NCBI RefSeq assembly: GCF_902832885.1
Contig: NZ_CADFDK010000009.1
Location: 124,001 to 188,000, forward strand
Length of the DNA: 64,000 bases
Source of the DNA: Burkholderia seminalis DSM 23518
GTDB taxonomy: Bacteria; Pseudomonadota; Gammaproteobacteria; Burkholderiales; Burkholderiaceae
Reading direction: 5' to 3'
This document shows, piece by piece, positions 1,113-16,960 of this stretch (position 1 is the first letter of the stretch; each line of letters begins with the position of its first letter). The notes beneath the pieces were generated by a model. That model made no database searches, was not told the DNA's origin, and saw nothing but the letters and a program-made list of their open reading frames with translations. The position numbers were made by a program, and so were the translations under genes.

Positions 1113-2675
1113 TTAGCGGACGACGTCTCCCTCCACCACTTGCACGTTCGACACCGCGTGCCGTTCCGGCAGCGTGTCGACGACGGGGCGCCCGTACTGG
1201 TCGTCGAAGCGCACGATGTCGTCCTCGCCGAGATAGTTGCCCGACTGCACCTCGATGATTTCCAGCGGAATCCGGCCGGGATTCTCGAGACGATGGACTT
1301 CGCCGACGGCGATGTACGTCGACTCGTTCTCGCTGAGCAGAAAGGTCTCGTTGCCGCGCGTCACCTTCGCGGTGCCGCGCACGACGATCCAGTGCTCGGC
1401 GCGGTGATAGTGCATCTGCAACGACAGCCGCTTGCCCGGTTCGACGACGATCCGCTTCACCTGGAACCGCTCGCCGAGATCGATCGAATCGTAGTGCCCC
1501 CACGGACGCTGCACCTTGCGGTGCTCGCTCGCCTGCGGGCGCCGGTCGCTCTTCAGGCGCGCGACGATGTTCTTCACGCGCTGCACGTCGTGCTTGTTCG
1601 CGACGAGCACCGCGTCGGGCGTTTCGATCACGACGACATCCTTCATCCCGACGCACGCGACGAGACGACCCTCGGAGCGCACGAGGCTGTCCTGCGTGTC
1701 CTCGAACACGATCGGGCCGCGGGCGACGTTGCCGTGATCGTCCTTCGGCATGATTTCCCAGATCGCATCCCACGTGCCGACGTCCGACCAGCCGGCCGAA
1801 AGCGGCACCACGATGCCCTCGATGCCGAGTTCGCTGTGGTCGGCGAGACGCTCCATGACCGCGTAGTCGATCGAGTCGGACGGGCAGGCGTCGAAGGCCG
1901 CCGCGTCGATCCGGAAGAACGGATCCTCGGCGACGCCCGCTCGCCATGCCGACTCGCAGGCCGTGTGGATCTCGGGCGCCAGCGCGCGAATCGCGTTGAG
2001 CCAGACCGAGGCGCGCGTGACGAAAATCCCGCTGTTCCACCAGTAGTCGCCCGATTGCAGGTAGCGCTCGGCGAGCACCGCGTCGGGTTTCTCGACGAAG
2101 CGTCCGATCGAATAGCCGCCTTGACCGCCATGGCGGCTCGTCCGCGGCTCGCCCACCCGGATATAGCCGTAGCCCGTTTCCGCGCGGCGCGGCAGCACGC
2201 CGAGCGTGACGATCGCGCCTTCCTGCGCGTAACGCGCCGCGCGTGCGATCGAGTCCTGGAACGCGCCGACATCGGCGATCACGTGATCGGCCGGCATCAC
2301 GGCGAGCACGGGATCGTCCGCGAGCGCGCTGGCGTCGAGCGCGGCGAGCGTCAGCGCCGGTGCCGTATTGCGCGCGGCCGGTTCGAGCAGGATGCGCGCG
2401 GGCGCCGCACGGTCGACCACTTGAGCGGCGCTCATGATGCGATGCTGTTCGCCGCATACCAGCAACAGCGTGTCGCCCAGCGCCGCGTTCGCGATGCCGT
2501 TCAGGCGGCGTGCGGTCGCCGACAGCGGCGATTCGTTCGACGTCAGTTCGATCAGCTGCTTCGGATACTGTTCGCGCGACAGCGGCCAAAGGCGCGTGCC
2601 GGAACCGCCGGCGAGGATGACCGGCAGGATGCGTGGCAGGTCAGGCTCAGGAACCGGGCGTAGGGTGCGGGTCAT
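1113..2675 (-). CDS. manC: Mannose-1-phosphate guanylyltransferase / mannose-6-phosphate isomerase
   Basis: A bifunctional type II phosphomannose isomerase/GDP-mannose pyrophosphorylase of 520 aa, supplying GDP-mannose for polysaccharide synthesis in the cytoplasm. The nucleotidyltransferase signature ILAGGSGTRLWPLSREQYP is at residues 20-38. The C-terminal cupin isomerase domain begins near VQRPWGHYDSID and carries the metal-binding QMHYHRAEHW segment. The ATG at 2673-2675 overlaps the TGA of the upstream acetyltransferase gene (ATGA, 2672-2675), implying translational coupling. Length and domain order match the AlgA/ManC/XanB family. The open frame continues upstream of this ATG, but the conserved N-terminus and the overlap support this start. 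Convergent with the beta-helix gene. Confidence 0.95.
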   Translation of the reverse strand: MTRTLRPVPEPDLPRILPVILAGGSGTRLWPLSREQYPKQLIELTSNESPLSATARRLNGIANAALGDTLLLVCGEQHRIMSAAQVVDRAAPARILLEPAARNTAPALTLAALDASALADDPVLAVMPADHVIADVGAFQDSIARAARYAQEGAIVTLGVLPRRAETGYGYIRVGEPRTSRHGGQGGYSIGRFVEKPDAVLAERYLQSGDYWWNSGIFVTRASVWLNAIRALAPEIHTACESAWRAGVAEDPFFRIDAAAFDACPSDSIDYAVMERLADHSELGIEGIVVPLSAGWSDVGTWDAIWEIMPKDDHGNVARGPIVFEDTQDSLVRSEGRLVACVGMKDVVVIETPDAVLVANKHDVQRVKNIVARLKSDRRPQASEHRKVQRPWGHYDSIDLGERFQVKRIVVEPGKRLSLQMHYHRAEHWIVVRGTAKVTRGNETFLLSENESTYIAVGEVHRLENPGRIPLEIIEVQSGNYLGEDDIVRFDDQYGRPVVDTLPERHAVSNVQVVEGDVVR

Positions 2676-3256
2676 CGGTTGGCTCCGGTATCGGCGGGCA
2701 GCCGGTTGTGTACGCGGCCGTCGGCGCGCGCGTCTTCGGTTCGGGGCCGGGCGGTCGAGACGGCCCGGGACAGCAGCTGGCGCAACGCGCCGGCGGCGCG
2801 GTCGGCCGGCCGGATCATGCCGACGAACGGCGCGCCCTGTTCGAGATACGGTCCGTATGCCTTGCGGAATCCGAAACGTTTGTAGAACGCCTGGCGCGGC
2901 TCGGGGACGTGCATGCGCAGCGCGGCGTCCGGCCACGCGGCCAGCGCGGCGGTCAGGGCACGTTCGAGCAGATGCTCGAGCGTATCGCCGTCGCGGCACG
3001 CTTCGCTCGTCAGTACCTTGTCGATCACGACGTCCGGATCGATGTCGTCTCCGGGCAGGATCCGTGCGTAGGCCGCGACTTCCGCCGTGTCGCCGTTGCA
3101 CACGGTCGCATAGACGTGCAATGCGCCCGCGTCCTTGCCGTCGATGTCGAGATGGGTATGCGCATCCTCGACGACCAGCACGGCGTTGCGTGCGCGCAGG
3201 ATTGCATAGAGATCGACGGCGCTCAGATGTTCGAATTCACAACAATGCCATTCCAT
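2672..3256 (-). CDS. GNAT acetyltransferase, ElaA-like
   Basis: 194 aa from ATG 3256. The N-terminal pattern (MEWHCCEFEHLSAVDLYAIL, then VVEDAHTHLDIDGKD and AYARILPGDD) matches the ElaA branch of the GNAT superfamily, as does the later FYKRFGFRKA and the GPYLEQGAPFVGMIR end. GNAT proteins transfer an acetyl group from acetyl-CoA to an amine; the ElaA substrate is not established. The frame is open further upstream (to 3553) but the upstream residues look non-coding, and ElaA proteins start at this Met. Its stop overlaps the start of manC, so the two are probably one transcript; the link to GDP-mannose synthesis is unexplained. About 40 residues after the GNAT core are Ala/Arg-rich and variable. 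Confidence 0.8.
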   Translation of the reverse strand: MEWHCCEFEHLSAVDLYAILRARNAVLVVEDAHTHLDIDGKDAGALHVYATVCNGDTAEVAAYARILPGDDIDPDVVIDKVLTSEACRDGDTLEHLLERALTAALAAWPDAALRMHVPEPRQAFYKRFGFRKAYGPYLEQGAPFVGMIRPADRAAGALRQLLSRAVSTARPRTEDARADGRVHNRLPADTGANR

Positions 3257-5490: not shown

Positions 5491-6882
5491 ATGAATATGC
5501 CAATAACGCGCGATAAGAGCGCCGGCGCGGGGAGCGGTAACGGGCAGCGTCCGCTGATCTACTGGACGCAGTCGCCTTCCGTGATGCTGCGAAAGGAATT
5601 GTCGCGCCGCGACTGGAAAGTGTCGGTCGTCGCGCATGCGAACGAGTTGCGCGACACGTCCGGCGAAATCACCTGCGGCATCCTCGATCTCAGCGGCGGC
5701 CATGCCGATGCGATCGGCAGCATCGCGTCGACCTGCGCGTCGATGCGCGACGTCGTGTGGGTCGCGCTCGTCGACGTCGGCCAGACCGCGTCGCCGAACG
5801 TGCGCGCGCTGTTGCGCGACTATTGCTTCGACTACGTCACGTTGCCCGCGTCGCATCAGCGGATCGCCGATACGGTCGGCCATGCGTACGGCATGGAGTG
5901 CCTGTTTGCCCGCGACCGCGAACAGCTCGAATCGGAGGAGAAGGGCATCGTCGGCACCTGCAGCGCGATGCTGCGGCTGTTCGATACGGTGCGGCGTTTC
6001 GCGCGCACCGACGCACCGGTATTCGTGTTCGGCGAAACGGGCACCGGCAAGGAACTGACGGCCGTCGCGATCCATCGCCATTCGGAACGGCGCAACGGCC
6101 CGTTCGTCGCGGTCAACTGCGGCGCGATTCCGCCGCATCTGCTGCAGTCCGAGTTGTTCGGCTACGAGCGCGGCGCGTTTACCGGCGCGAACGCGCGCAA
6201 GATCGGTTATGTCGAAGCCGCGAACGGCGGCACGCTGCTGCTCGACGAAATCGGCGACCTGCCGCACGAGAGCCAGGCGAGCCTGCTGCGGTTTTTGCAG
6301 GAGCGTTCGATTCACCGGCTCGGCGGCAGCGATCCGGTGCCGGTCGACGTCCGGATCGTGTCGGCCACGCACGTCGACCTGCGCGATGCGATGGAGGAGG
6401 GCCGTTTTCGTGCCGACCTGTTCCACCGTCTGTGCGTGATGCGTATCGACCAGCCGCCGCTGCGCGCGCGCGGCAAGGACATCGAACTGCTCGCGCATCA
6501 CATGCTCGAACGTTTCCGCGGCGACGCGCGCCATCGCGTGCGCGGTTTCTCGACCGATGCGATCACCGCGCTGTACAAGCACGACTGGCCGGGTAATGTC
6601 CGCGAATTGATCAACCGCGTGCGCCGTGCGGTCGTGATGACGGAAGGGCGGCTGATCACCGCGCGGGATCTCGAGCTCGAATACTGTCTCGATGCGGCGT
6701 CGCCGTCGGTGGCCGACATCCGCAAGTCGATCGAGCGCGAGGCGATCGAAACGGCGCTGCTGCGCACGCGCGGCCGCGTCGCGGCTTCCGCGCGCGAACT
6801 CGGCGTGTCGCGCGCGACGCTGTATCGCTGGATGGAGGCGTACGGCATCGAGCGGCCGCGCGGGACGGGCTCGTCCGACTGA
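5491..6882 (+). CDS. Sigma-54-dependent enhancer-binding protein, VpsR/BerB-like
   Basis: 463 aa, three domains. Residues ~20-140 form a degenerate receiver-like domain (VpsR type) with LDLSGG where a phospho-Asp segment would lie, so phosphorylation is doubtful. Residues ~150-390 are an AAA+ core: Walker A GETGTGKE (181-188), the sigma-54-contacting GAFTGA loop (228-233), Walker B LLLDEIGD (249-256) and PGNVREL near 368. A Fis-type helix-turn-helix is at ~427-449 (RVAASARELGVSRATLYRW). It should activate RpoN promoters. VpsR and Burkholderia BerB bind c-di-GMP and switch on exopolysaccharide and biofilm genes; the adjacent polysaccharide genes and the sigma-54 promoter at 14569 fit that role. 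Whether this is BerB itself or a paralogue cannot be decided from sequence alone. Confidence 0.9.
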   Translation: MNMPITRDKSAGAGSGNGQRPLIYWTQSPSVMLRKELSRRDWKVSVVAHANELRDTSGEITCGILDLSGGHADAIGSIASTCASMRDVVWVALVDVGQTASPNVRALLRDYCFDYVTLPASHQRIADTVGHAYGMECLFARDREQLESEEKGIVGTCSAMLRLFDTVRRFARTDAPVFVFGETGTGKELTAVAIHRHSERRNGPFVAVNCGAIPPHLLQSELFGYERGAFTGANARKIGYVEAANGGTLLLDEIGDLPHESQASLLRFLQERSIHRLGGSDPVPVDVRIVSATHVDLRDAMEEGRFRADLFHRLCVMRIDQPPLRARGKDIELLAHHMLERFRGDARHRVRGFSTDAITALYKHDWPGNVRELINRVRRAVVMTEGRLITARDLELEYCLDAASPSVADIRKSIEREAIETALLRTRGRVAASARELGVSRATLYRWMEAYGIERPRGTGSSD

Positions 6883-6942: not shown

Positions 6943-9426
6943 TCAACCGGCGTGCGTCGCGCGCACCGCGCGCGCGGCATTCACTGCACGGATGTCCACC
7001 GCAGGCGGCACGTCGTCGCTCGCCGGGTTGTGCCCGGCCGATTGCAGCGGAACGAGCGCGACGCGCGCCGGCGTGCCCGGCGCGAGGTGGAACCAGTCGT
7101 CGCGCGGCATGAAGCCCGGTGCGTCGATCTGCACGTGGCGCGCGACGTGCCGCGTGTCGATGTCGACATGCCACGTGCCACCGGTGCGCGATACGCACGC
7201 CTCGATTCCGAGTTCGCGGCGCGCCAGTACGGCCGGATGGGTGCGGGACGGGAAATGGAACGCCTGCGACAGCAGGGTGCCGTCGTCGGTGCGCAGCGTC
7301 GCGACAACGGTGTCGTGTTCGCAGGGCCCGAAACGGTATGCATAGGTCCAGTCGAAGAAACGGCCGAGCAGGTCGGCCGAGCCGATCCGCATCGCGTCGT
7401 GCGCGGCGATCCGCACCGGGCAGCCGGCCCGCGCGACCGGCGTGCGGCCGTCGCGCAGCGCGACCAGCTCGATCGCCGCCGACAGCGGCGCCGGGTGCTC
7501 GTTGACCACGTGCACGTCGAGCCCGTTCAAGCCTTCGTCGACGAGCAGCACCTGGACTGGCTGAAGCACCTGCCGCAGCGCATACCACGCCGATTTCGGC
7601 CGGTGCGCGGCGTCGATCACCCCCCATCCTGCTCCGGGCATCACGTCCTGGAACTGCCACACGAGCGCGCCGGCGCAGCGCGAGCCGGTGCGCCGCCACT
7701 CCGAGAACGTTTCGCGCATCAGGTCGGCGATCACCGCGCGCGACAGCTCGAAGTAGCGGGCCGGATCCTCGCGCCGCAGCCGGTCGGGCGCGACGTCGTA
7801 CAGCGTCCGCAGATAGTGGTCGCGGACATCCTCGAAATCCCACGACGTGCCGGGGTCGCGCGGCACGGCCGTCTTCCAGCGCGGCTCGTGCACGCCGGGC
7901 CAGCCGAGCACCGCGAGCGTCGCATCGCACGGCACGTTCGCGAACGCGAGGCATTCGCTCGCGAAGCGCACGTCGGCGCGGCGCGCGTCGTCGAGCGGGC
8001 GCAGGTACGCGCCGACGCCGTAGTAGTGCGACACGCGTTCGCGCGGCGTGAACGGCAGCACGCCGCCGTCGGGCGAATCGGGCACGTACGGGACGTCGGG
8101 ACGGCGTGCGGCCGCATGGCCGGCCAGCCGCTCGGCCGTCAGCTCGAGGAAGCGCTGCTTCGGCGCGAGTCCCGACATCGCGGCCTGTTGTGCGATCTCG
8201 CTGCCGCCGCACAGCACCGCCAGCGACGGCGAAGCGCCGCGGCGCGCGAGAAACTGATCCGCCTCGCGATCGACGTTGTCCGCGAACGCGGGATCGTCGA
8301 GCGCGTAGTCGAAGTTCGCGAACATGAAGTCCTGCCAGACCAGCAGCCCGAGCCGGTCGCACCATGCGTGGAACGCGTCGGCCTCATAGGTCATCGTGCC
8401 GCCGACGCGGATCATGTTGAAGCCGGCGTCGCGTGCGAGCCCGAGCAGGCGGCCGTAGGCCGCGTCGTCCGCGTGCAGCGCGAGCGGGGCGGCGCTGCTC
8501 CAGCACGCGCCGCGCGCGAACACCGGTACGCCGTTGATGCGCAACCCGAAGCCCTTGCCGTCGGCGCCGCCGTCGACCTCGATCGTGCGGAAGCCGGTCG
8601 AGCCGAGCGGCCGCCGTTCGTCGCCGATATGCAGCGTGATCTCGTAGAGTGCCGGTTCGCCGTGCGTATGCGGCCACCAGCGGCGCACGCTGGGCACGGC
8701 GACGCTGGCGCGCAGGCGGTCGGTGCCGGTGCGTTCCAGCGTCGCATGATGCTCGCCGCACGACAGCCGCGCGGCGATGCTGTCGGGCAGCGGCGCGGCG
8801 AACGCCAGTTCCGCGTCGAGCCAGCCCGTGTCGCCTTCGATGCGCGCCTGCAGGCGCGCATCGACCAGGACGGGGCCGTTGGCCGGATCGAGCACCTCGA
8901 CGGGCCGCCACGGGCCGGCCGGTACCGCTGGCGGAAACCAGCCCGGCATGTGCCCGAACAACGATGCGCGGACCGTGCGCAACGCGGCCGGCTCGGCGAG
9001 CCGCGTGCGCCAGCGCGCCCGGCGCGGCGCGCGCGCGTCGCGCAGCCGCGGCGCGAGCGCGCGAAAGCAGAGCGTCAGCCGGTGCGTGCCGTCGAGCGAC
9101 ACGGGTACGTCGTGCGTGACGAACATGCTGTCGGAGCGGAGGATCGGCGTGTCGTCGAGCCAGGCCTGCGCGAGCGTCGCGAGGCCGTGGAAGCGCAGCA
9201 CGCGCGGCCCGTGCCCGCGCAGCTCGATCCGGTACCAGTGGTCGCGCTCGTCGAGCGAGCGCGCATCGTCGACCCGGCCGGCCAGCGTGAGCGCCTGCGC
9301 GACCGTGCCGGGCACGGGCGCCGCGATCCAGCCGGCGTCATCCGCCGGAAGGTCGCACGGTTCCCGCACGGCGCCCGCGGCCGTCGCGAGCATCGACCAC
9401 GCGGGCAGGGCTCGCGCGCGCGTCAC
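6943..9426 (-). CDS. Glycoside hydrolase family 2, beta-mannosidase-like
   Basis: 827 aa from a GTG at 9424-9426 that overlaps the TGA of the upstream DUF1839 gene (GTGA). An N-terminal galactose-binding-like sandwich, an Ig-like domain and a central TIM barrel are recognisable. The barrel has SEIAQQ with the putative acid/base Glu410 (usual GNNE is here CGGSE) and the putative nucleophile Glu491 in FASECLAFANVP. RGACWSS and FNMIRVGGTMTYE are typical of beta-mannosidases. No convincing signal peptide, so probably cytoplasmic. It is the last gene of the carrier-protein operon and sits in a GDP-mannose/exopolysaccharide locus, so a mannoside or aminoacylated glycan is a possible substrate; that is inference. 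Confidence 0.85.
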   Translation of the reverse strand: MTRARALPAWSMLATAAGAVREPCDLPADDAGWIAAPVPGTVAQALTLAGRVDDARSLDERDHWYRIELRGHGPRVLRFHGLATLAQAWLDDTPILRSDSMFVTHDVPVSLDGTHRLTLCFRALAPRLRDARAPRRARWRTRLAEPAALRTVRASLFGHMPGWFPPAVPAGPWRPVEVLDPANGPVLVDARLQARIEGDTGWLDAELAFAAPLPDSIAARLSCGEHHATLERTGTDRLRASVAVPSVRRWWPHTHGEPALYEITLHIGDERRPLGSTGFRTIEVDGGADGKGFGLRINGVPVFARGACWSSAAPLALHADDAAYGRLLGLARDAGFNMIRVGGTMTYEADAFHAWCDRLGLLVWQDFMFANFDYALDDPAFADNVDREADQFLARRGASPSLAVLCGGSEIAQQAAMSGLAPKQRFLELTAERLAGHAAARRPDVPYVPDSPDGGVLPFTPRERVSHYYGVGAYLRPLDDARRADVRFASECLAFANVPCDATLAVLGWPGVHEPRWKTAVPRDPGTSWDFEDVRDHYLRTLYDVAPDRLRREDPARYFELSRAVIADLMRETFSEWRRTGSRCAGALVWQFQDVMPGAGWGVIDAAHRPKSAWYALRQVLQPVQVLLVDEGLNGLDVHVVNEHPAPLSAAIELVALRDGRTPVARAGCPVRIAAHDAMRIGSADLLGRFFDWTYAYRFGPCEHDTVVATLRTDDGTLLSQAFHFPSRTHPAVLARRELGIEACVSRTGGTWHVDIDTRHVARHVQIDAPGFMPRDDWFHLAPGTPARVALVPLQSAGHNPASDDVPPAVDIRAVNAARAVRATHAG

Positions 9427-10478
9427 CGCATGACCGGCACGGGCGCCGCGTCGCTGCGCACGGGCGCGACATGTCGCAGCGGCGCGCCGATCTGCCGCGC
9501 GCAGGCGACGAGGTCGGCATACGCGGCCTCGATCGCCTCGAGCGTCGAGTCGCCGCGTTCTTCCTTGCCGCGCGCGCAGGCGCGCGCAAGCCGGAATTCC
9601 AGCACCATCGCTTCCGACGCGATGCGATCGCACGCGGCGCGGATCTCGGCGAACGGCCCGACGCAGCCGCTGGCCTGCAGCCAGCGTGCGTAGTGGCCGA
9701 ACAGTTCGAAGTTTGCGCCGAGCTGCCGCACCGAATTGAACGAGTATGCGTGGAAGTGCTCGAGCGGTGCATCGGCGAGGGTCCGTGCGTCGGTCTGCAA
9801 CTGCCGCCGGAAGGCGGCGATCGGATTGACGACCGGCAGGCGCCGCAGGTGACGCTGCAGCGCGGCGAGCGATGCGTCGCAGAGCGCGCGCTCGTCGAGC
9901 GGCGTAAACCGCCGTTTCGCGCATTCGACGTACGGCGGCAGCGTCATCGGCGAACTGCCGCCGACGAGCCCGTTGTAGTCGAAATCCTCGGCCACGTAGT
10001 AACCGCTATTGTGGAAATAGCCGATCTGGTGCTTCACGCGGTCGATGGCGTCGATGCCGATCGTCGTCTTCGTGTGTTGTGTGCGATAGCTGCTGCCGCG
10101 CGTGTCGGGCAGGAACCACGCGTCGACCTCGACGATCATCAGGTGGCCGCGCGCGACCTGGGTCTCGATGTGCTGGTCGAGCGGTTCGTAGATCGAATGT
10201 TCCTGCACGACGATCCCGTAGAGCCGCTCCAGTTCGTCGTGCGGAAACTTGAAGAACGTGAACTGGTCGCCCTCGAAATCGAGCGCGATCGTAAACGGCA
10301 GCGCCGCGTACGGATTCAGGCCCCACCACCGGAGCACCTCGAGCCACATGTCGACGTAGCAGTTGGTCTGCTTCCAGACCATCTCCTGACTGTGCAGCGG
10401 GTGCGGCCGGTAGTGGCGTGCGCGGTGGCGCACGTCCTCGAACGACGCGTCTTCGCCGTCGCGGGAGACGAACCTCAT
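9423..10478 (-). CDS. DUF1839 family protein
   Basis: 351 aa from ATG 10478, which overlaps the TGA of the ligase gene (ATGA). No catalytic motif is recognised with certainty. Notable conserved-looking stretches are QTNCYVDMWLEVLRWWGLNP (about 40-60), IALDFEGDQFTFFKFP, IEVDAWFLPDT followed by THTKTTIG-type residues, and YFHNSGYY/DFDYNGLVG. The mix of Asn, Cys, His and Asp in these blocks is compatible with a papain-like or butirosin BtrH-like acyl-transfer fold; that comparison is inference. DUF1839 genes are known to accompany amino acid:[carrier protein] ligases, which is exactly the context here, so a role in taking the aminoacyl group from the carrier protein is a reasonable hypothesis. 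Cytoplasmic; no signal or membrane segment. Confidence 0.75.
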   Translation of the reverse strand: MRFVSRDGEDASFEDVRHRARHYRPHPLHSQEMVWKQTNCYVDMWLEVLRWWGLNPYAALPFTIALDFEGDQFTFFKFPHDELERLYGIVVQEHSIYEPLDQHIETQVARGHLMIVEVDAWFLPDTRGSSYRTQHTKTTIGIDAIDRVKHQIGYFHNSGYYVAEDFDYNGLVGGSSPMTLPPYVECAKRRFTPLDERALCDASLAALQRHLRRLPVVNPIAAFRRQLQTDARTLADAPLEHFHAYSFNSVRQLGANFELFGHYARWLQASGCVGPFAEIRAACDRIASEAMVLEFRLARACARGKEERGDSTLEAIEAAYADLVACARQIGAPLRHVAPVRSDAAPVPVMR

Positions 10479-11449
10479 CGCGCGCCCCACAGTACGTCGC
10501 GCACCTCGACCGGCCATGCGTCGATGTCGAAGCCGTGGTGGCGGAACAGCGCGAGCGTGAGCCGTTCGAGGCCGAAGCCGACGCAGCCCGTGTGCGCGAC
10601 GTCGTCCGTTGCGGTGCGGATGTTCCACAGCAGGCCGAAATGGTCCATGTGGTAGTTGAAGCTCAGGCACGCGGTCTGACGGTCGTCGTGCTCGATCGGG
10701 ATCAGCAGCTCGAACTTCAGGTTCTGCTCGCGCTGGCTGTTCGCGACGATCTTGCCGCCCCGGCCGAAGAACGGATCGTTGGCGAGATCGATCGCATTCG
10801 GCAGGCGCAGCGCCTCGATCATCCGCGTGCCGCGCTCGATCCATGTTTCGCGGAACGCGACGATCTGTTCGGGCGTGCCGATGCGCACGTACTCGCGCAT
10901 CCGGAACAGCTGCATGCGGGTCGGGTCGAGCGACGGCTCGTGCCGGAAGCAGTACGAGAACACGTCGACGATCCGGCCGTCGGCGGGCAGCGCCCCCGCG
11001 CGCGCGACGACCGGATAGACCGGGTAGCACGCGGCCGGCGTCATCACGACGTAGGTCGGCTTCTGGCTTTCGGTCCAGTCGTCGCCGCGATCGAGGCACT
11101 GCAGCACGCGCTGGTGCTGGTGTTCGTCGCCGCAGAACGCGTGCACGCTGCCAGCCAGCTGCGGGAAGCTCTTCATGTATTCGCTGCGCTCGAACTCGAT
11201 GCGGCTCATCGCCGGCGGGAAGCGCAGCACTTCGGCTTGCTGGTCGGCGCCGACGCGCGTGACGAATGCGTCGAGCGCTTCGACGACGCGCTCGAATCGT
11301 TCGCTGCGGCCGAACAGGCCCTGGATGCCGGTCGAGACCAGCAGGCCCGCGTCGATCAGTTCGTCGCGCAGCGGGTTGACGCCCGCGCGGTCGAGCGGCG
11401 CGTCGGCGGGAGTGGAGGCGGCGGAGGGCACGGCGAGGCGATCGTTCAC
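10475..11449 (-). CDS. Amino acid--[acyl-carrier-protein] ligase (class II aaRS-like)
   Basis: 324 aa. The GTG at 11447-11449 overlaps the upstream TGA (GTGA). This is a stand-alone class II synthetase core without a tRNA-binding arm, like the atypical-SerRS homologues of Bradyrhizobium that activate glycine or alanine and load it on a carrier protein instead of tRNA. Motif 2 region: YCFRHEPS and RMQLFRMREYVRIG (about 166-191); motif 3: GFGLERLTLALFR (291-303). Cys141, Glu186 and Cys289 sit where the zinc ligands of these enzymes are expected. The cognate carrier protein (12639-12890) is two genes upstream in the same operon. Which amino acid is loaded cannot be read from the sequence. Confidence 0.9.
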   Translation of the reverse strand: MNDRLAVPSAASTPADAPLDRAGVNPLRDELIDAGLLVSTGIQGLFGRSERFERVVEALDAFVTRVGADQQAEVLRFPPAMSRIEFERSEYMKSFPQLAGSVHAFCGDEHQHQRVLQCLDRGDDWTESQKPTYVVMTPAACYPVYPVVARAGALPADGRIVDVFSYCFRHEPSLDPTRMQLFRMREYVRIGTPEQIVAFRETWIERGTRMIEALRLPNAIDLANDPFFGRGGKIVANSQREQNLKFELLIPIEHDDRQTACLSFNYHMDHFGLLWNIRTATDDVAHTGCVGFGLERLTLALFRHHGFDIDAWPVEVRDVLWGAR

Positions 11450-12642
11450 GTATGTTTCTCCAGCGTCGCAGGACGCAGCGCGAGCAGCAGGCTCGCAGTG
11501 TTGGCGGCAATGCGGTCGTTGCTGATCATCAGCGGCGCCGCGAGCAGGTCGCGAATGTGACGGCCGATGCTGAACGGCGTGCCTTGCTTGTAGCCGGCCA
11601 TCCCGCAGATCATCATCGCCTGGTGCGCGACTTCGAGCGCGGTCGTCGACACGTAGGTCTTCAGCGTGTTGATCTCGGCGGCCCGGGCCATGCTGGCCGA
11701 CCACGAGCTGGTCGACGCGTTCGCGTGGAGGCGCAGCACGGCGTCGACACGGGCCTGCATCGCCTGCATCAGCGCGAGCGATTCGGCGATGCGCCGCGCC
11801 GCGGGCGACGGCGCGCCGTCGGTCTGGCGCGCCTGTGCGCGGAAGAACTGGTGCGCGCGATGGAACGCGTCGCCGGCCACGCCGATCCAGACGGCGGCCC
11901 ACAGGATGTGCGACACCGGCACCATCGTTTCTTCGGCGATCTTCGCGAACGGGACCGGCAGGCACTGGACGGCGGCGCCTTGCGCATCGAGCACGAAGCC
12001 GTTGCTGCAGGTGCCGCGCATCCCGAGCGTGTCCCATTCGCCGCGGCGCGTGAGCGTATAGCCGTCGCGCAGCAGCGTGACGAGCACCTGCTCGGAGGCC
12101 GGGGCGTCGGCGTCGCGGCGTGCGGTCGCGAGGATGCCGTCCGCATAGTCGCCGTACGAGATCGTCGGCGCGGATTTGCGCAGCCGGAACCCGCCGCCGT
12201 CGGTTTCGAGCGCGCACTGGCTTGCGCGCAGGTTGCCGCCGACGCCGTCTTCCGACGTCGCCGACGCGAGCAGCCACTGGTGGCGCACGAGCTGTTGCAG
12301 GAACAGCTTGTGCCAGCCCTGGTCGGCAGCATGGTCGACGATGCAGGCGACCTGGATCTGGTGCATCGCGAACACCATCGCCGACGACGCGCAGGCCTGG
12401 CCGAGGATCGAGCAGGCCGACGCGATATCTTCCAGCGACGCGCCCGCACCGCCGAGATGGGTCGGCACCATCGCGCCGAGCAGCCGGCGCGCGCGCATTG
12501 CCTCGATCGCCTCGACGGGGCAGCGCGCGTCGCGATCGACCGCATCCGCGTGCTGCGCGGCGATCTGTGCGACGGCGTGCGCGGCCTCGTCGAGCCGATG
12601 CGATTCGCTGTCGGCCGCGAGTTCGGGAAGCGGCGCGCTCAT
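11446..12642 (-). CDS. Acyl-CoA dehydrogenase-like flavoprotein
   Basis: 398 aa from ATG 12642, overlapping the TGA of the carrier-protein gene (ATGA). The N-terminal helical domain (PVEAIEAMRARRLLGAMVPTHLGG), a middle beta domain (SATSEDGVGGNLRAS, WDTLGMRGTCSNGFVLD) and a C-terminal helical bundle (CGMAGYKQGTPFSIGRHIRDLLAAPLM) follow the acyl-CoA dehydrogenase fold, which binds FAD. The position between a carrier protein and an amino acid:carrier-protein ligase suggests it oxidises an aminoacyl-S-carrier substrate, as PltE/RedW-type enzymes do with prolyl-carrier protein; a flavin monooxygenase activity is the alternative. No catalytic base can be assigned safely. Confidence 0.85.
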   Translation of the reverse strand: MSAPLPELAADSESHRLDEAAHAVAQIAAQHADAVDRDARCPVEAIEAMRARRLLGAMVPTHLGGAGASLEDIASACSILGQACASSAMVFAMHQIQVACIVDHAADQGWHKLFLQQLVRHQWLLASATSEDGVGGNLRASQCALETDGGGFRLRKSAPTISYGDYADGILATARRDADAPASEQVLVTLLRDGYTLTRRGEWDTLGMRGTCSNGFVLDAQGAAVQCLPVPFAKIAEETMVPVSHILWAAVWIGVAGDAFHRAHQFFRAQARQTDGAPSPAARRIAESLALMQAMQARVDAVLRLHANASTSSWSASMARAAEINTLKTYVSTTALEVAHQAMMICGMAGYKQGTPFSIGRHIRDLLAAPLMISNDRIAANTASLLLALRPATLEKHT

Positions 12643-12890
12643 GCGGAATGCTCGGTGCGTTGCAGGGTGGCGATCGTGTCCGCGAGTGCGTCGATGCTGC
12701 GGAACAGGTTGCGGTTCAGCATCTCGTCGGGAATCTCGATGTTGAACTGCTTCTCGATCGCGAGCATCAGCTGGATCGTGTCGAGCGAGGAGAGGCCCGC
12801 TTCGTAGAGGTCGTCCCCGTCGCCGATCGAATCGATCGCGGCTTCGAGGTGGGCGACGTGCTTGAGGATGGTTCTGATTTCGTTTTTCAC
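12639..12890 (-). CDS. Acyl carrier protein (amino acid carrier)
   Basis: 83 aa starting at GTG 12888-12890, with GGAG six bases upstream. The sequence has the four-helix carrier-protein pattern: DDLYEAGLSSLDTIQLMLAIEKQF followed by IEIPDEML. Ser35 in the LSSLD segment is the expected phosphopantetheine attachment site (usual DSL is here SSL). It is acidic and short, as expected for a discrete carrier. It is the first gene of the five-gene overlapping operon and the likely partner of the ligase at 10475-11449. A phosphopantetheinyl transferase is not in the window. Confidence 0.9.
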   Translation of the reverse strand: MKNEIRTILKHVAHLEAAIDSIGDGDDLYEAGLSSLDTIQLMLAIEKQFNIEIPDEMLNRNLFRSIDALADTIATLQRTEHSA

Positions 12891-13057
12891 GTGCTGCTCC
12901 GGCGTGCGTGGTGTCGTCCGCTCGGGCAGACGCGCGATGTGCGCTGACGTCCCCCCGGCAGTCCGGCATCAGTAGACCATTGGCAGGCACGGCGTTCTGT
13001 TCGCCACCCTACAATCGGCTGACCCGGCGTGCTCGCGGTGCCGGGCCGGTCCGTCGA

Positions 13058-13840
13058 TCACGCGCGCGATGCGGCCGGCACGCCCGAGTCGGCCGACAGA
13101 ATGCGCTTCATTTCGTCGCGCACGATCGCGCGGCAGCCACACGACATCCTTTCGAGGCCGTCGAGGTCGGCAAGCTCGATCGAGCTGCGGTATTGCCGGA
13201 TCAGGCCGAGCTTCTGGATTTCGCCGGCGGCATCCGTGACCGTTTCGCGCCGCACGCCGAGCATCTGCGCGAGCATGCTGTGCGTCACCTGGATCTCGAT
13301 GCTGCGCGTGCGGTCGTACGCGAGCAGGAACCATCTGCATAGCTGATGTTTCAGCACGTGATGCCGGCTGCAGAACGTGATCTGCGACACCTGCGCCATC
13401 AGCAGACGCACGCAGACGAACACGAGATGGCGGATCACCGGCGATGCGTCGAACGCGGCGGCGAATACGCGCCGGTCGAGCCGGTAGACGAAGCCGTCGC
13501 GGCAGGCCACCGCACGGCAGGGCATCCGGCCGCTGCCGCCGATCACGTCGTCGCAGACCACGCTCTCGCTGCCGATCTCCGCCACCTCCAGCGTCATGCC
13601 GCCGGACGACACGTACTGCAGCGAGATCGCCGTCGTGACCGGCAGGTACACCGCGGTGAGCATTTCACCGGGTTCGCACAGCACTTGCCCCGATTTCAGG
13701 TGAACGAGCTGCAGGTGGGGTGCCAGCGTGGCGAGTTCGTCGCGGTCGATGGCCGCGAGAAACCGGTTGGCATCGAAGCTGTGGGAAAGCTCGATCATGC
13801 CGTTCGCGTAGGCGACGGCGTCGTTGGCCTGGAGAGTCAC
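13058..13840 (-). CDS. Crp/Fnr family transcriptional regulator
   Basis: 260 aa from GTG 13838-13840, chosen because AGGA lies about nine bases upstream and the product then has the same length as its paralogue at 14760-15542. The N-terminal cyclic-nucleotide-like beta-roll spans ~40-125 (LKSGQVLCEPGEMLTAVYLP). A long dimer helix follows, then a winged helix-turn-helix at ~186-214 (THSMLAQMLGVRRETVTDAAG). No Cys cluster of the Fnr type precedes the beta-roll, so an Fe-S oxygen sensor is unlikely. It is transcribed toward the carrier-protein operon, 167 nt upstream of it, and may control it. A Fnr-like box lies about 130 nt upstream of its start. An internal Met at 13798 is an alternative start. 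Confidence 0.85.
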   Translation of the reverse strand: MTLQANDAVAYANGMIELSHSFDANRFLAAIDRDELATLAPHLQLVHLKSGQVLCEPGEMLTAVYLPVTTAISLQYVSSGGMTLEVAEIGSESVVCDDVIGGSGRMPCRAVACRDGFVYRLDRRVFAAAFDASPVIRHLVFVCVRLLMAQVSQITFCSRHHVLKHQLCRWFLLAYDRTRSIEIQVTHSMLAQMLGVRRETVTDAAGEIQKLGLIRQYRSSIELADLDGLERMSCGCRAIVRDEMKRILSADSGVPAASRA

Positions 13841-13969
13841 GGCACATCCTCGTAGGGTGGCGATCTCGCGTCGTCGTGGCGGTCCCGTGAAAACGGGATT
13901 CAGCACGATCGTGCGAATTTGTGTTCATCGAAAATCGAATGACGATGCTGCGAAAAGGCTAGCACGCGA

Positions 13970-13983
13970 TTGAAATCGATCAA
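13970..13983. promoter_or_regulatory. Fnr/Crp-like box
   Basis: TTGAAATCGATCAA matches the Fnr consensus TTGAT-N4-ATCAA except for one base. It lies about 130 nt upstream of the minus-strand Crp/Fnr gene and could be bound by either regulator flanking this region. Similarity alone does not prove binding. Confidence 0.4.
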
Positions 13984-14568
13984 TTGCACATTACGTCATC
14001 TTGCAAAGTTTGACGATTTTGGTCGAGTGCAAACGTCATGCGGATTTAATGGTTCATTTCCGTCGAATTAATCATCCGGAAATGGAATGCCGAGCGGGTC
14101 CGTCATTCAATCTTGTTCGGGAATCAATCGGATGACGGTGTGCATCGTACGTGAAAATCATCGGGCGCACGTTGAACATTATTTGACAAATAAACGGGGT
14201 CTGCCTGAATGTCCATCAGGATCAATGGCTTGCGTGCGATGTGTGCGACAGGTTACAGAACGGGGAATGCGTACGCCGATTCAAATTTGAGACAGTTTCA
14301 AACGAACGTGTGAAGCACGGCGACACCGGGAAGCGTGGTCCTGAACATCACGGAAACAATTGAAAATAGGCTGTAAGTGTTTGAACGACAAGCTTCGCGG
14401 CCCCGATCCGTTTGCCCCGGCTCGATGCAGAAGAATTGTTCAGTCAAATCAATTGCGGTGTCCGTCGCCGGAAGAGTGTCCGGAAATGAGACGCTTTTTA
14501 TGGTGCGAGGCCGAATATTCGGGCGATCCAAATCGAGTGTGATTCATATATTAAGGATGGGCGGCTAT

Positions 14569-14584
14569 TGGCACGTAAATCGCT
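14569..14584 (+). promoter_or_regulatory. Sigma-54 (RpoN) promoter
   Basis: TGGCACG (14569-14575), four bases, then TCGCT (14580-14584). The -24 element is perfect and preceded by T; the -12 element TCGC has one mismatch to TTGC; the GG-to-GC spacing is exactly 10 nt as required. Transcription would run toward the Crp/Fnr gene at 14760, leaving a leader of about 160 nt. The sigma-54 activator at 5491-6882 is the obvious candidate partner. Confidence 0.75.
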
Positions 14585-14759
14585 TATTCGAATTCGCGTG
14601 TCGAAACGGGGCGGCCGACTCAATTCGGCGGTAACAAGTCGATGGTCGGTCGGAATCAGGGTTGTGGGCCGCAACCGTTGTCAACGTCCGGACGCGCATT
14701 GCGATAACGAGTTCCGTGCACGCGGCTGCAGGCGGTGCGGACAATAAAGGGATACAGAC

Positions 14760-15542
14760 ATGCTTCATCTTCACTCGAGCTACACGGCGAACGCCATCCT
14801 CGATGCACTCCCGGAGGACAGCATCCGCACTATCGCACCGCATCTCGAACTGGTCCGGATCAAGGCCGGCATGCTCGACCGGGTCGGCGAGCCGATGCGC
14901 CATCTGTATTTTCCGACGACGGCGATGATGTCGGTGCAGCACCTGATGGAGGACGGCGCGATGGTCGAGGTGGCGGTGGTCGGCCGTGAAGGCGTGGTCG
15001 GCCTCGGGACGCTGGTGGGCGGCATCGCGGCGTCGAACCGGGTCGAGGTGCGCATCGGCGGGATGGCGTATCGCGTGCCGAGTTGCGTGATGCGTGCCGA
15101 ATTCGAGCGATCGCCGCAGACGTACCGGCTGCTGCTCAACTACTGCCAGGCGACGATGGCGCAGATCTCGCGCAGCGCGCTGTGCAACCGTCATCACTCG
15201 GTCAGCGAGCAGTTGAGCCGCTGGCTGCTGCTCGCGCACGACCGCATCGACGGCGACGAGCTGGCCGTCACGCAGCAGACGATCGCGAACATGCTCGGCG
15301 TGCGGCGCGAAGGCGTGACGGAGGCCGCCGGCAACCTGCAGGAAGCCGGATTGATCCGGCAGCGCCGCGGCCGCATCACGGTGCTCGACCGCGACGGGCT
15401 CGAACACCACGCGTGCGAATGCTACGACCTGATTCGCGCCGACTATCGCCGGTTGCTCGGGGCGCGCGGGAATGCGAGGCCGGCGCCGGTTCGTCCGCGC
15501 CTGCCGGAGGTGCATCGCGGATTCCCGGCACATGGTGCATGA
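14760..15542 (+). CDS. berA: Crp/Fnr family regulator, probable c-di-GMP effector BerA
   Basis: 260 aa. Cyclic-nucleotide-type beta-roll at ~30-115 (ELVRIKAGMLDRVGEPMRHLYFP), dimer helix, and winged helix-turn-helix at ~171-200 (TQQTIANMLGVRREGVTEAAG). In B. cenocepacia the Crp/Fnr protein BerA binds c-di-GMP and activates a biofilm exopolysaccharide cluster, and its gene is transcribed from an RpoN promoter activated by BerB. Here a near-consensus sigma-54 promoter lies upstream, a VpsR/BerB-like activator is nearby, and the stop codon overlaps the start of a sugar phosphotransferase gene (ATGA at 15539-15542). The assignment to BerA rests on this context; the paralogue at 13058-13840 is the alternative. 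Confidence 0.7.
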   Translation: MLHLHSSYTANAILDALPEDSIRTIAPHLELVRIKAGMLDRVGEPMRHLYFPTTAMMSVQHLMEDGAMVEVAVVGREGVVGLGTLVGGIAASNRVEVRIGGMAYRVPSCVMRAEFERSPQTYRLLLNYCQATMAQISRSALCNRHHSVSEQLSRWLLLAHDRIDGDELAVTQQTIANMLGVRREGVTEAAGNLQEAGLIRQRRGRITVLDRDGLEHHACECYDLIRADYRRLLGARGNARPAPVRPRLPEVHRGFPAHGA

Positions 15543-16960
15543 CGATGCAGTCGACGTCCGGTGGAACGAATGCGATGCGGCGTGCCGCGATCGCGGCGCT
15601 CGATGTCGTGCTCGTGCTGGCGGGGGCGCTTGCGGCGCAGGCCGCGTCCGGCCTCGCATGGCGTGAGTTGTCCGATGCGCAGCGCGGTGCGATCGCGCTG
15701 CTGTGCGTGCTGACGGTGGCGCTGCTGCCGCGCTACCTGCGCGCCGTGCGTGGCGGCGTGGCGGTGCGGGGCGGCGCGCACGTGCTGACGCAGACGATGG
15801 TGGCGGTCGTCTGCGCGAGCGTGCTGACGGTGGCCGCCGCGATGTGGATCATGAATCGAGGCGGCACCGTCACGACACGCTGGCTCGTGCACACGGTGCT
15901 GGCCGGCGACGCGGCGTTGCTGCTCGGCCGCGCCGCGCTGCTGGCCGTCGTGCTGACACGCAACGACCCGCGTGCGCGGCAACGCCGTGTCGCCGTGGTC
16001 GGCGCAACGGCATACGGGCGCGTGGCGGTCGAGCGGATGCAGCTCGCGCCGAACGGCCCGTTCGTGGCGGCATGCGTCTTCGATGACGACGCACCGGCCG
16101 CCGCGAACGGCATCGGCGGCGTGCCGGTGATCGACGACTGGGCCACGCTGCGCGACATGATCCGCAACGGCGAGATCGACGAAGTGTGGCTCACGCTGCC
16201 GATGTCGCACGAATGGCGGATCCAGCGCATCGTGCGCGAGTTGCGCGACGAGTTCGTCGAGCTGCGGCTGCTGCCCGATGTGCGGCAGATGGCGGTCGTC
16301 GATCGCTCCGCGACCGACGTGCTCGGCATGCCGGCGATCAATCTCGCGACCACGCCGAGCTCGGCGCCGGAGCTGTGGGCGAAGTTCGTGTTCGACCGGC
16401 TGTTCGCGTTCGGCGTGCTGATTCCGTTGCTGCCGCTGCTGTCGATCCTGGCGATCGCGGTCAAGCTGTCGTCACCGGGGCCCGTGCTGTTCAGGCAGCG
16501 CCGCAAGGGCGTGGACGGCCGCGAGTTCGACATCCTGAAGTTCCGGACGATGCGTGTGCATCGCGCGCAGCCGGGCGTCTTGCGGCAGGCCTCGCGCAAC
16601 GACGCGCGCATCACGCGCGTCGGCGCATTCCTGCGGCGCACGTCGCTCGACGAGCTGCCGCAGTTCTTCAACGTGCTGTTCGGGCAGATGTCGGTCGTCG
16701 GGCCGCGCCCGCACGCGATCGAACACGACGACCTCTATCGGCAACTGATCGACTGCTACATGTACCGCTATCGCGTGCGTCCGGGCATCACCGGATGGGC
16801 GCAGGTGAACGGCTATCGCGGCGAGACGCGCAAGGTCGAGGCGATGGCGGCGCGCGTGAAATTCGATCTTTTCTACATGCAGAACTGGAGCTTCTGGTTC
16901 GACATGAAGATCATCCTGTTGACGGTCGTGCGCGGCTTCATCGGCCGCAACGCTTTCTGA
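15539..16960 (+). CDS. Undecaprenyl-phosphate sugar phosphotransferase (exopolysaccharide initiating enzyme)
   Basis: 473 aa from ATG 15539, overlapping the regulator stop; the frame is open upstream but this start gives the expected N-terminus. Four or five hydrophobic segments in the first ~140 residues, a CoA-binding-like Rossmann middle (VAVVGATAYGRVAVE, residues ~152-166), then a membrane helix and the bacterial sugar transferase domain: FRQRRKGVDGREFDILKFRTM, TSLDELPQFFNVLFGQMSVVGPRPHA and RVRPGITGWAQVNGYRGET. It transfers hexose-1-phosphate from UDP-hexose to undecaprenyl phosphate at the inner membrane, starting repeat-unit assembly (WcaJ/WbaP type; glucose is the commonest substrate). 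Translational coupling to the regulator is notable. Confidence 0.93.
   Translation: MTMQSTSGGTNAMRRAAIAALDVVLVLAGALAAQAASGLAWRELSDAQRGAIALLCVLTVALLPRYLRAVRGGVAVRGGAHVLTQTMVAVVCASVLTVAAAMWIMNRGGTVTTRWLVHTVLAGDAALLLGRAALLAVVLTRNDPRARQRRVAVVGATAYGRVAVERMQLAPNGPFVAACVFDDDAPAAANGIGGVPVIDDWATLRDMIRNGEIDEVWLTLPMSHEWRIQRIVRELRDEFVELRLLPDVRQMAVVDRSATDVLGMPAINLATTPSSAPELWAKFVFDRLFAFGVLIPLLPLLSILAIAVKLSSPGPVLFRQRRKGVDGREFDILKFRTMRVHRAQPGVLRQASRNDARITRVGAFLRRTSLDELPQFFNVLFGQMSVVGPRPHAIEHDDLYRQLIDCYMYRYRVRPGITGWAQVNGYRGETRKVEAMAARVKFDLFYMQNWSFWFDMKIILLTVVRGFIGRNAF

Follow-up and report, generated by a model that had tools for sequence, protein, structure and literature searches.

Ligases that aminoacylate a carrier protein (CP) have been known since 2010, and they reportedly load glycine or alanine. 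The butirosin side-chain module BtrI/J/O/H resembles the cassette described below in having an acyl carrier protein (ACP), a ligase, a flavin oxygenase and a papain-like ACP:aminoglycoside acyltransferase. BtrH has been given the last of these names in print (PMC10318531). In a note in proof of 2010, Aravind and colleagues described the gene neighbourhood that is the subject here and predicted a pathway made up of the ligase, an ACP, a redox enzyme, a conserved unknown protein (Atu2574) and a glycosidase; according to that paper (PMC2922099), Atu2574 would be the amide-forming ligase, its acceptor being an amino sugar at the cell surface. A 2022 review still called the biological role of CP aminoacylation unknown (PMC9437257). 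Here we analyse the corresponding five-gene cassette of Burkholderia seminalis DSM 23518, present in a 64,000-nucleotide stretch of contig NZ_CADFDK010000009.1 (positions 124,001 to 188,000; "the window"). Among plasmid-collection records, those nearest to the window come from B. arboris (90.8%) and B. cenocepacia (90.1%), both matching over 84% of it, which fits a Burkholderia like those of the cepacia complex. On balance, we favour the view that the cassette is self-contained, activates a small amino acid and links it by an amide to an amine, most probably that of an amino sugar. An earlier reading of this DNA from its sequence alone (the original prediction) had held that the full pathway appears undescribed. 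This cannot be maintained, since both the neighbourhood and a sugar-aminoacylation pathway had been predicted in print. We found no experimental test of the 2010 prediction in the literature, and no follow-up on the ligase, exopolysaccharide or DUF1839 in searches judged mostly from paper listings.

The cassette consists of the following genes:

12639-12890, minus strand: CP; GTG start, 83 amino acids, phosphopantetheine site Ser35 (PF00550, NF005480)
11446-12642, minus strand: flavoprotein of acyl-CoA dehydrogenase (ACAD) fold; ATG start, 398 amino acids, Ile373 where ACADs carry their catalytic Glu
10475-11449, minus strand: amino acid:[carrier protein] ligase with a class II synthetase core; GTG start, 324 amino acids (NF005479), with Cys141, Glu186 and Cys289
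9423-10478, minus strand: DUF1839 protein, predicted CP-dependent amide-forming aminoacyl transferase; ATG start, 351 amino acids (PF08893), with Cys40, Thr138, His156 and Asp167
6943-9426, minus strand: GH2 glycosidase, beta-mannosidase-like; GTG start, 827 amino acids (PF22666; PDB 5n6u, 2vjx), with Glu410 and Glu491

In the reading frames of the window, each of the four junctions is a 4-base overlap (ATGA, GTGA, ATGA and GTGA). The five overlapping genes were thus confirmed at these positions, with families named by Pfam and NCBIfam. Overlaps of 4 bases are a Burkholderia trait, and the estimated spacings vary in other genera. The GH2 frame stays open farther upstream of 9426; we place its start there because Trp at position 10 is invariant among aligned relatives and because the spacing fits the operon.

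The CP and the ligase belong to the known amino acid:CP ligase system, as originally proposed. Both exceeded the cut-offs of their equivalogs: 148 versus 72 for the CP ("acyl carrier protein", NF005480) and 557.2 versus 357 for the ligase ("amino acid--[acyl-carrier-protein] ligase", NF005479). Against the general class II core (PF00587) the ligase scored 27.9, just under the cut-off of 29.3. It matched the solved Bradyrhizobium ligase Bll0957 (PDB 4h2w and 3mey; E 2e-93 and 9e-91), with which it shares the family and the Cys/Glu/Cys residues; in loci related to the Bradyrhizobium ligase, too, a flavoprotein adjoins. Residues Cys141, Glu186 and Cys289, singled out in the original prediction, were invariant in 21 of 21 ligases in one alignment and in 121 of 121 in a larger one; for the latter count and those given for Ser35, Ile373, Glu410 and Glu491, sequences of odd length or containing internal stops were first removed. 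What we observed is their conservation; we take them to be zinc ligands. Ser35 of the CP was invariant in 89/89 aligned sequences.

DUF1839 (PF08893, 427.5 bits; cut-off 22.5) matched, in fold and over its whole chain, CP-dependent amide-forming transferases of the CcbD/CtaG type. A sequence search of the PDB returned a chance match alone (E 0.086) and none to CcbD. Cys40 was present in 98 of 99 DUF1839 sequences. Helix 40-51, the first core helix, begins with this Cys, whose pairing with C19 of CcbD is by position, not by residue-level alignment. His156, Asp167 and Glu185 were invariant (99/99), and Thr138 was found in 98 of 99. These counts take the best-scoring copy per locus and so hide the Cys-less copies of L055 and L142 (L and H numbers are our handles for loci and plasmid records).

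Among 398 sampled Pseudomonadota genomes, 44 had matches to the ligase family, 28 of them above the cut-off. Sixteen genomes, the window's own included, carried type-1 loci, in which genes for the CP, the flavoprotein, the ligase, DUF1839 and GH2 follow one another. Twelve carried type-2 loci, which retain flavoprotein and ligase and had no DUF1839 or GH2 match in any case; six of these are from one genus, with ligases resembling the solved Bradyrhizobium enzyme. A separate search for DUF1839 yielded 16 of the 398 genomes. They were identical to the 16 type-1 genomes, each had a ligase, and 16 of their 18 DUF1839 genes adjoin it (hypergeometric probability of the co-occurrence 2e-21, not corrected for kinship). 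Because of the full-length fold match, the conserved Cys and His and this strict co-occurrence, we predict that DUF1839 is a papain-like enzyme that passes the aminoacyl group from the CP to an amine. The original prediction had offered release or transfer; the fold match to CP-dependent transferases supports transfer.

In six loci, the operon copy of DUF1839 lacks Cys40 (Arg or Gln instead) and Thr138 (Ala or Ser). L142, L209, L210 and L211 are from Cupriavidus, and the last three belong to the four plasmid records listed for that genus; L046 and L055 are from two genomes of one genus. The frames are open and His156 and Asp167 are kept; L055 has also lost Glu185. All six have a second DUF1839 copy with intact Cys40 and Thr138 in the same genome, on the opposite strand beyond the CRP gene (see below) in five and on a different contig in the sixth. 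Purifying selection acts on the Cys-less copies no less strongly than on the Cys copies: the ratio of nonsynonymous to synonymous substitution rates (dN/dS) was 0.07-0.35 in 15/15 pairs, compared with 0.14-0.48 in 10 pairs of Cys copies. Since Cys-less and intact copies are paired and the former are under purifying selection, Cys40 is probably important, with the Cys-less protein retained for another task, perhaps as a partner subunit. Cupriavidus cauae (L152) had a single copy, with Cys, within the 17.4 kb examined. Three more plasmid records also have two DUF1839 places: H64 (a second C. metallidurans record), H47 (A. brasilense) and H23 (R. leguminosarum). The copies read from H47 and H23, one place each, carry Cys.

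Co-conservation extends to the whole cassette. We examined 80 named loci, the best 80 of 576 confirmed in the genome collection and biased to close relatives; in 77 of them the five genes are collinear on one strand. Contigs L086 and L091 stop before GH2, and in L142 DUF1839 is present in the operon but a better-scoring second copy lies elsewhere. The sets of named and unnamed loci are not fully separate, L051 and L147 being one locus. The neighbourhood search suggested with the original prediction therefore found a conserved unit, not genes adjacent only in this strain. The cassette occurs in Burkholderia, Paraburkholderia, Caballeronia, Cupriavidus, Pararobbsia, Mycetohabitans, Azospirillum, Methylobacterium and Chthonobacter, and DUF1839 additionally in plasmid records from Rhizobium, Shinella and Phyllobacterium. 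Many of the bacteria with the cassette are plant-, insect- or fungus-associated. Another search found DUF1839 in 34 of 61 genomes, all in the window's genus (34 of 37 there, its own included). On one R. leguminosarum plasmid (L203) the incomplete gene table has no annotated GH2 and an IS5 element after DUF1839; on another (L213) tblastn found a partial ligase, DUF1839 and a 151-residue GH2 match, with no CP or flavoprotein. The cassette may be degrading on both.

The flavoprotein has the ACAD fold; its Acyl-CoA_dh_N and _1 domains scored above the Pfam cut-offs and its middle domain below its own. The catalytic Glu of ACADs is that of the IYEGT motif. At its place the flavoprotein has Ile373, invariant in 111 of 111 sequences and found in none of the 22 paralogues of the same genome (the alignment of 23 loci includes the operon's own gene). 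A canonical acyl-CoA dehydrogenase is therefore disfavoured. The nearest PDB sequences were, by a small margin, N-oxygenases (E 7.8e-13 to 1.8e-11); the amino-sugar N-oxygenases comprise DnmZ, nitrososynthase and KijD3, and in the structural comparison they tied with other ACAD-fold enzymes. Loss of the ACAD Glu together with some kinship to these enzymes leads us to favour oxygenation over dehydrogenation. The original prediction suggested that the flavoprotein oxidises the tethered amino acid. Its ACAD-like nature stands; with the catalytic Glu missing, dehydrogenation is no likelier than oxygenation.

GH2 matched Glyco_hydro_2_N2 (PF22666) at 45.1 bits (cut-off 27) and was nearest to beta-mannosidases (5n6u, E 4.8e-43; 2vjx, E 2.5e-35); the solved relatives listed span several specificities. 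E410 and E491, invariant in 95 of 95 sequences, aligned to CGNNE and FMSE of 2vjx, and we take them to be the acid/base and nucleophile pair. The window's GH2 and five annotated relatives lack a hydrophobic, signal-peptide-like N-terminus, so the enzyme is probably cytoplasmic. The five-gene set named at the outset holds as a unit, often with one more gene beside it: an alpha/beta-hydrolase fusion occurs in 35 of 98 type-1 loci, often directly after GH2 (annotated there in L204, from Azospirillum B510, L208 and L212), but was not found in any of the 12 type-2 loci. The window's genome has this gene some 14 kb away from the operon (L160 9138-10889). In L009 it fuses relatives of two exosortase-A-associated hydrolases, 1 and 2 (TIGR03100 and TIGR03101), at 100.5 and 77.4 bits, below the curated cut-offs of 168.45 and 202.75.

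From the anatomy, conservation, residues and model and fold matches we infer every reaction of the following scheme. The ligase would adenylate an amino acid (glycine or alanine, by analogy with its family) and load it onto the phosphopantetheine of the CP, as is known for the family. The flavoprotein would then oxidise the CP-bound aminoacyl group, more likely by oxygenation (e.g. of its nitrogen) than by alpha,beta-dehydrogenation. DUF1839 would move the product from the CP via Cys40 to the acceptor amine. GH2, its catalytic Glu residues intact, and in many genomes the alpha/beta-hydrolase fusion may trim or remodel the resulting glycoside, which is the weakest step. In Burkholderia, the cassette may be expressed together with the exopolysaccharide locus described next. 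In short, the cassette would be a CP-dependent aminoacyl transfer system in which a synthetase-like ligase replaces the adenylation domain.

The neighbouring genes of the window are as follows:

13058-13906, minus strand: CRP/FNR-family regulator, berA by position (PF00027, PF13545); 167 bp before the CP gene, same direction
5491-6882, plus strand: VpsR-domain sigma-54 activator, taken as berB from its position (PF00158, PF20161); converges on the GH2 gene
1113-3101, minus strand: ManC, GDP-mannose synthesis, in the adjacent exopolysaccharide locus (Pfam); corresponds to Bcam1340 (PMC3584217, Table 2)
15083-16960, plus strand: undecaprenyl-phosphate-type sugar transferase of the exopolysaccharide locus (PF02397)

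tblastn matches to the sugar transferase, some of them partial, were found in 53 of the 123 loci searched. The window order is beta-helix protein, ManC, GT4, sigma-54 gene, cassette, CRP gene. For B. cenocepacia, PMC3584217 and PMC9684580 give Bcam1339 (beta-helix protein), Bcam1340 (ManC), BCAM1342 (berB) and BCAM1349 (berA), with one difference: Bcam1341, a hypothetical acyltransferase, stands where the window has the GT4 gene before the sigma-54 gene. Because the orders match, the cassette apparently fills the gap between the cyclic di-GMP (c-di-GMP)-responsive regulators berB and berA, as judged from order and domains and not by comparing the named proteins. The main texts of two Bep papers do not mention the locus tags between berB and berA that were searched for (1343, 1344, 1347 and 1348 in PMC5552954; 1343-1348 in PMC3584217), and the cassette is not part of the 12-gene bep cluster. 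A scan of 12600-14600 for sigma-70 promoters and terminators found nothing; with no terminator-like site between them, co-transcription of the CRP and CP genes is possible. Paraburkholderia ginsengisoli (L097) has the two genes in this order as well. Exopolysaccharide genes flank the cassette in Burkholderia and in many Paraburkholderia and Caballeronia loci. On the R. gallicum (L207 6604-12463) and R. acidisoli (L010 8520-14355) plasmids it lies directly downstream of nifDKENX-fdxB, in an insect-derived Caballeronia beside MFS, TonB and ABC genes, and in Mycetohabitans near type III secretion and LTA-synthase genes. An ACC deaminase gene follows the cassette in R. gallicum, and the GH2 match of R. 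acidisoli spans 353 residues only.

Several findings weigh against amide transfer by way of an oxygenated aminoacyl-CP. Its gist had already been proposed by the 2010 authors, the cassette includes no gene that makes an amino sugar, and a pathway of transfer alone would not obviously need GH2. There are several candidates for the third catalytic residue of DUF1839: Thr138 according to PMC10318531, Asp167 or Glu185 by spacing. As to the flavoprotein, butyryl-CoA dehydrogenase came close behind the N-oxygenases in the PDB search (E 2.1e-11), and the best NCBIfam model, below its cut-off, was the dehydrogenase family Rv1679_FadE16. The structural list was topped by dehydrogenases tied with DszC/TdsC-type oxygenases, and it included ColB1, which dehydrogenates a tethered cysteine. 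Glu is also absent at the Ile373 place from 15 of the 22 paralogues; given that just seven have it (L180, L184, L185, L186, L191, L192 and L193), many PF00441 proteins do without the catalytic Glu. Five of the others are DszC-like. It is possible, though less likely, that the flavoprotein is a true dehydrogenase of the tethered amino acid, giving an imine or a dehydroamino acid with a base other than the usual Glu and leaving the rest of the pathway as proposed. The Ile373 pattern and the kinship to N-oxygenases argue against this, as do the absence of Glu at the alternative place in all 12 family members shown and the fact that glycine has no beta-carbon. That DUF1839 is instead a thioesterase strikes us as improbable. 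The cassette would then release a free oxidised amino acid (e.g. N-oxidised glycine or alanine), with GH2 incidental or making or freeing its glycoside. Papain-like enzymes frequently hydrolyse, and the missing acceptor-making gene would be accounted for, whereas the fold match is to transferases.

A different acceptor is assumed if the cassette decorates Bep or a related exopolysaccharide with an amino acid, by ester or amide, which overlaps with our preferred reading and which we consider unlikely. In its favour, the Burkholderia cassette is placed between the apparent berB and berA, with genes for ManC, a GT4 and a sugar transferase close by, and many Paraburkholderia and Caballeronia loci have a Wza, Wzc or Wzy gene no more than 10 kb away. 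In Shinella a gene of the GumC family lies about 6 kb upstream of the cassette, and in A. brasilense one for a family 9 glycosyltransferase lies about 5 kb upstream; in R. acidisoli the CP gene is overlapped by a gene annotated as "exopolysaccharide production repressor protein". The alpha/beta hydrolase, moreover, is related to exosortase-A-associated hydrolases. Because some of these settings lie outside the Burkholderiaceae, we retain the explanation as a rival. However, Bep of B. cenocepacia H111 is Gal-Glc-Gal-Man, isolated in NaOH, and has no amino sugar (PMC7084887). It thus offers no amide acceptor, though an ester would be lost in NaOH. The Wzc left of the window (L160 11747-15122) is 29% identical to that of the compared B. 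cenocepacia record (L011 6722-8968), whereas the five cassette proteins are 90-100% and the sigma-54 regulator 99% identical; exopolysaccharide genes therefore vary between fixed regulators. The probably cytoplasmic location of GH2 also counts against decoration. The viewed stretches of Azospirillum B510, an insect-derived Caballeronia and R. gallicum contained no exopolysaccharide genes, and their cassettes lie beside ABC-transporter, TonB or nif genes. The exopolysaccharide setting invoked in the original prediction thus holds for part of the distribution, and dedicated Bep decoration is weakened by the polymer structure, the divergent neighbouring genes and the varied settings elsewhere.

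Among known systems, lincosamide condensation (CcbD/LmbD, a CP and the adenylating enzyme LmbC/CcbC) is close to the cassette. The two systems share a free-standing or fused CP, a separate activating enzyme and a Cys transferase of the same fold; the cassette differs in having a class II synthetase-like ligase for the adenylation domain and in adding the flavoprotein and GH2. Compared with the butirosin module, it has no decarboxylase, and BtrH_N is a different Pfam family. Relative to the 2010 prediction, we add fold evidence, statistics and strict co-occurrence, a further gene, the pairing of Cys-less copies with intact ones and the location at berA/berB. The amide step is supported by this independent route, and the general link to cell-surface polysaccharide is weakened. 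If DUF1839 is a CP-dependent amide-forming transferase, the role of CP aminoacylation becomes testable at the bench with three or four soluble proteins. The assignment would be the first testable reaction for this Pfam domain of unknown function and would suggest that symbionts of plants, fungi and insects make a hidden metabolite. More speculatively, and only as a tentative extension, DUF1839 may found a branch of the CcbD/CtaG type. The cassette would then make small conjugates of an undescribed class, in which an amide joins an N-oxidised amino acid to an amino glycoside; the makers would be host-associated Pseudomonadota (including rhizobial symbiosis plasmids next to nif genes, fungal endosymbionts and insect symbionts), and the Cupriavidus transferase would be a dedicated pair of catalytic enzyme and pseudoenzyme.

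Distant synthetase-like proteins (L069-L079), mostly open frames of 400-480 amino acids, are 25-30% identical to the ligase and have no CP, flavoprotein or DUF1839 matches nearby. Among type-2 loci L056-L061 and L066, six have a protein of about 312 amino acids directly after the ligase, in the place that DUF1839 takes in type-1 loci, and L066 has a relative a few kb away. These six Bradyrhizobium-like loci differ in this way from the cassette, lacking DUF1839 and GH2 matches. The protein looks like a GNAT by eye and had no Pfam, NCBIfam or PDB match. Clustering grouped it with DUF1839; no direct link was found, and we treated the grouping as a clustering artefact. A PAS-GGDEF-EAL protein is next in L057, and its relatives occur in the others of these loci.

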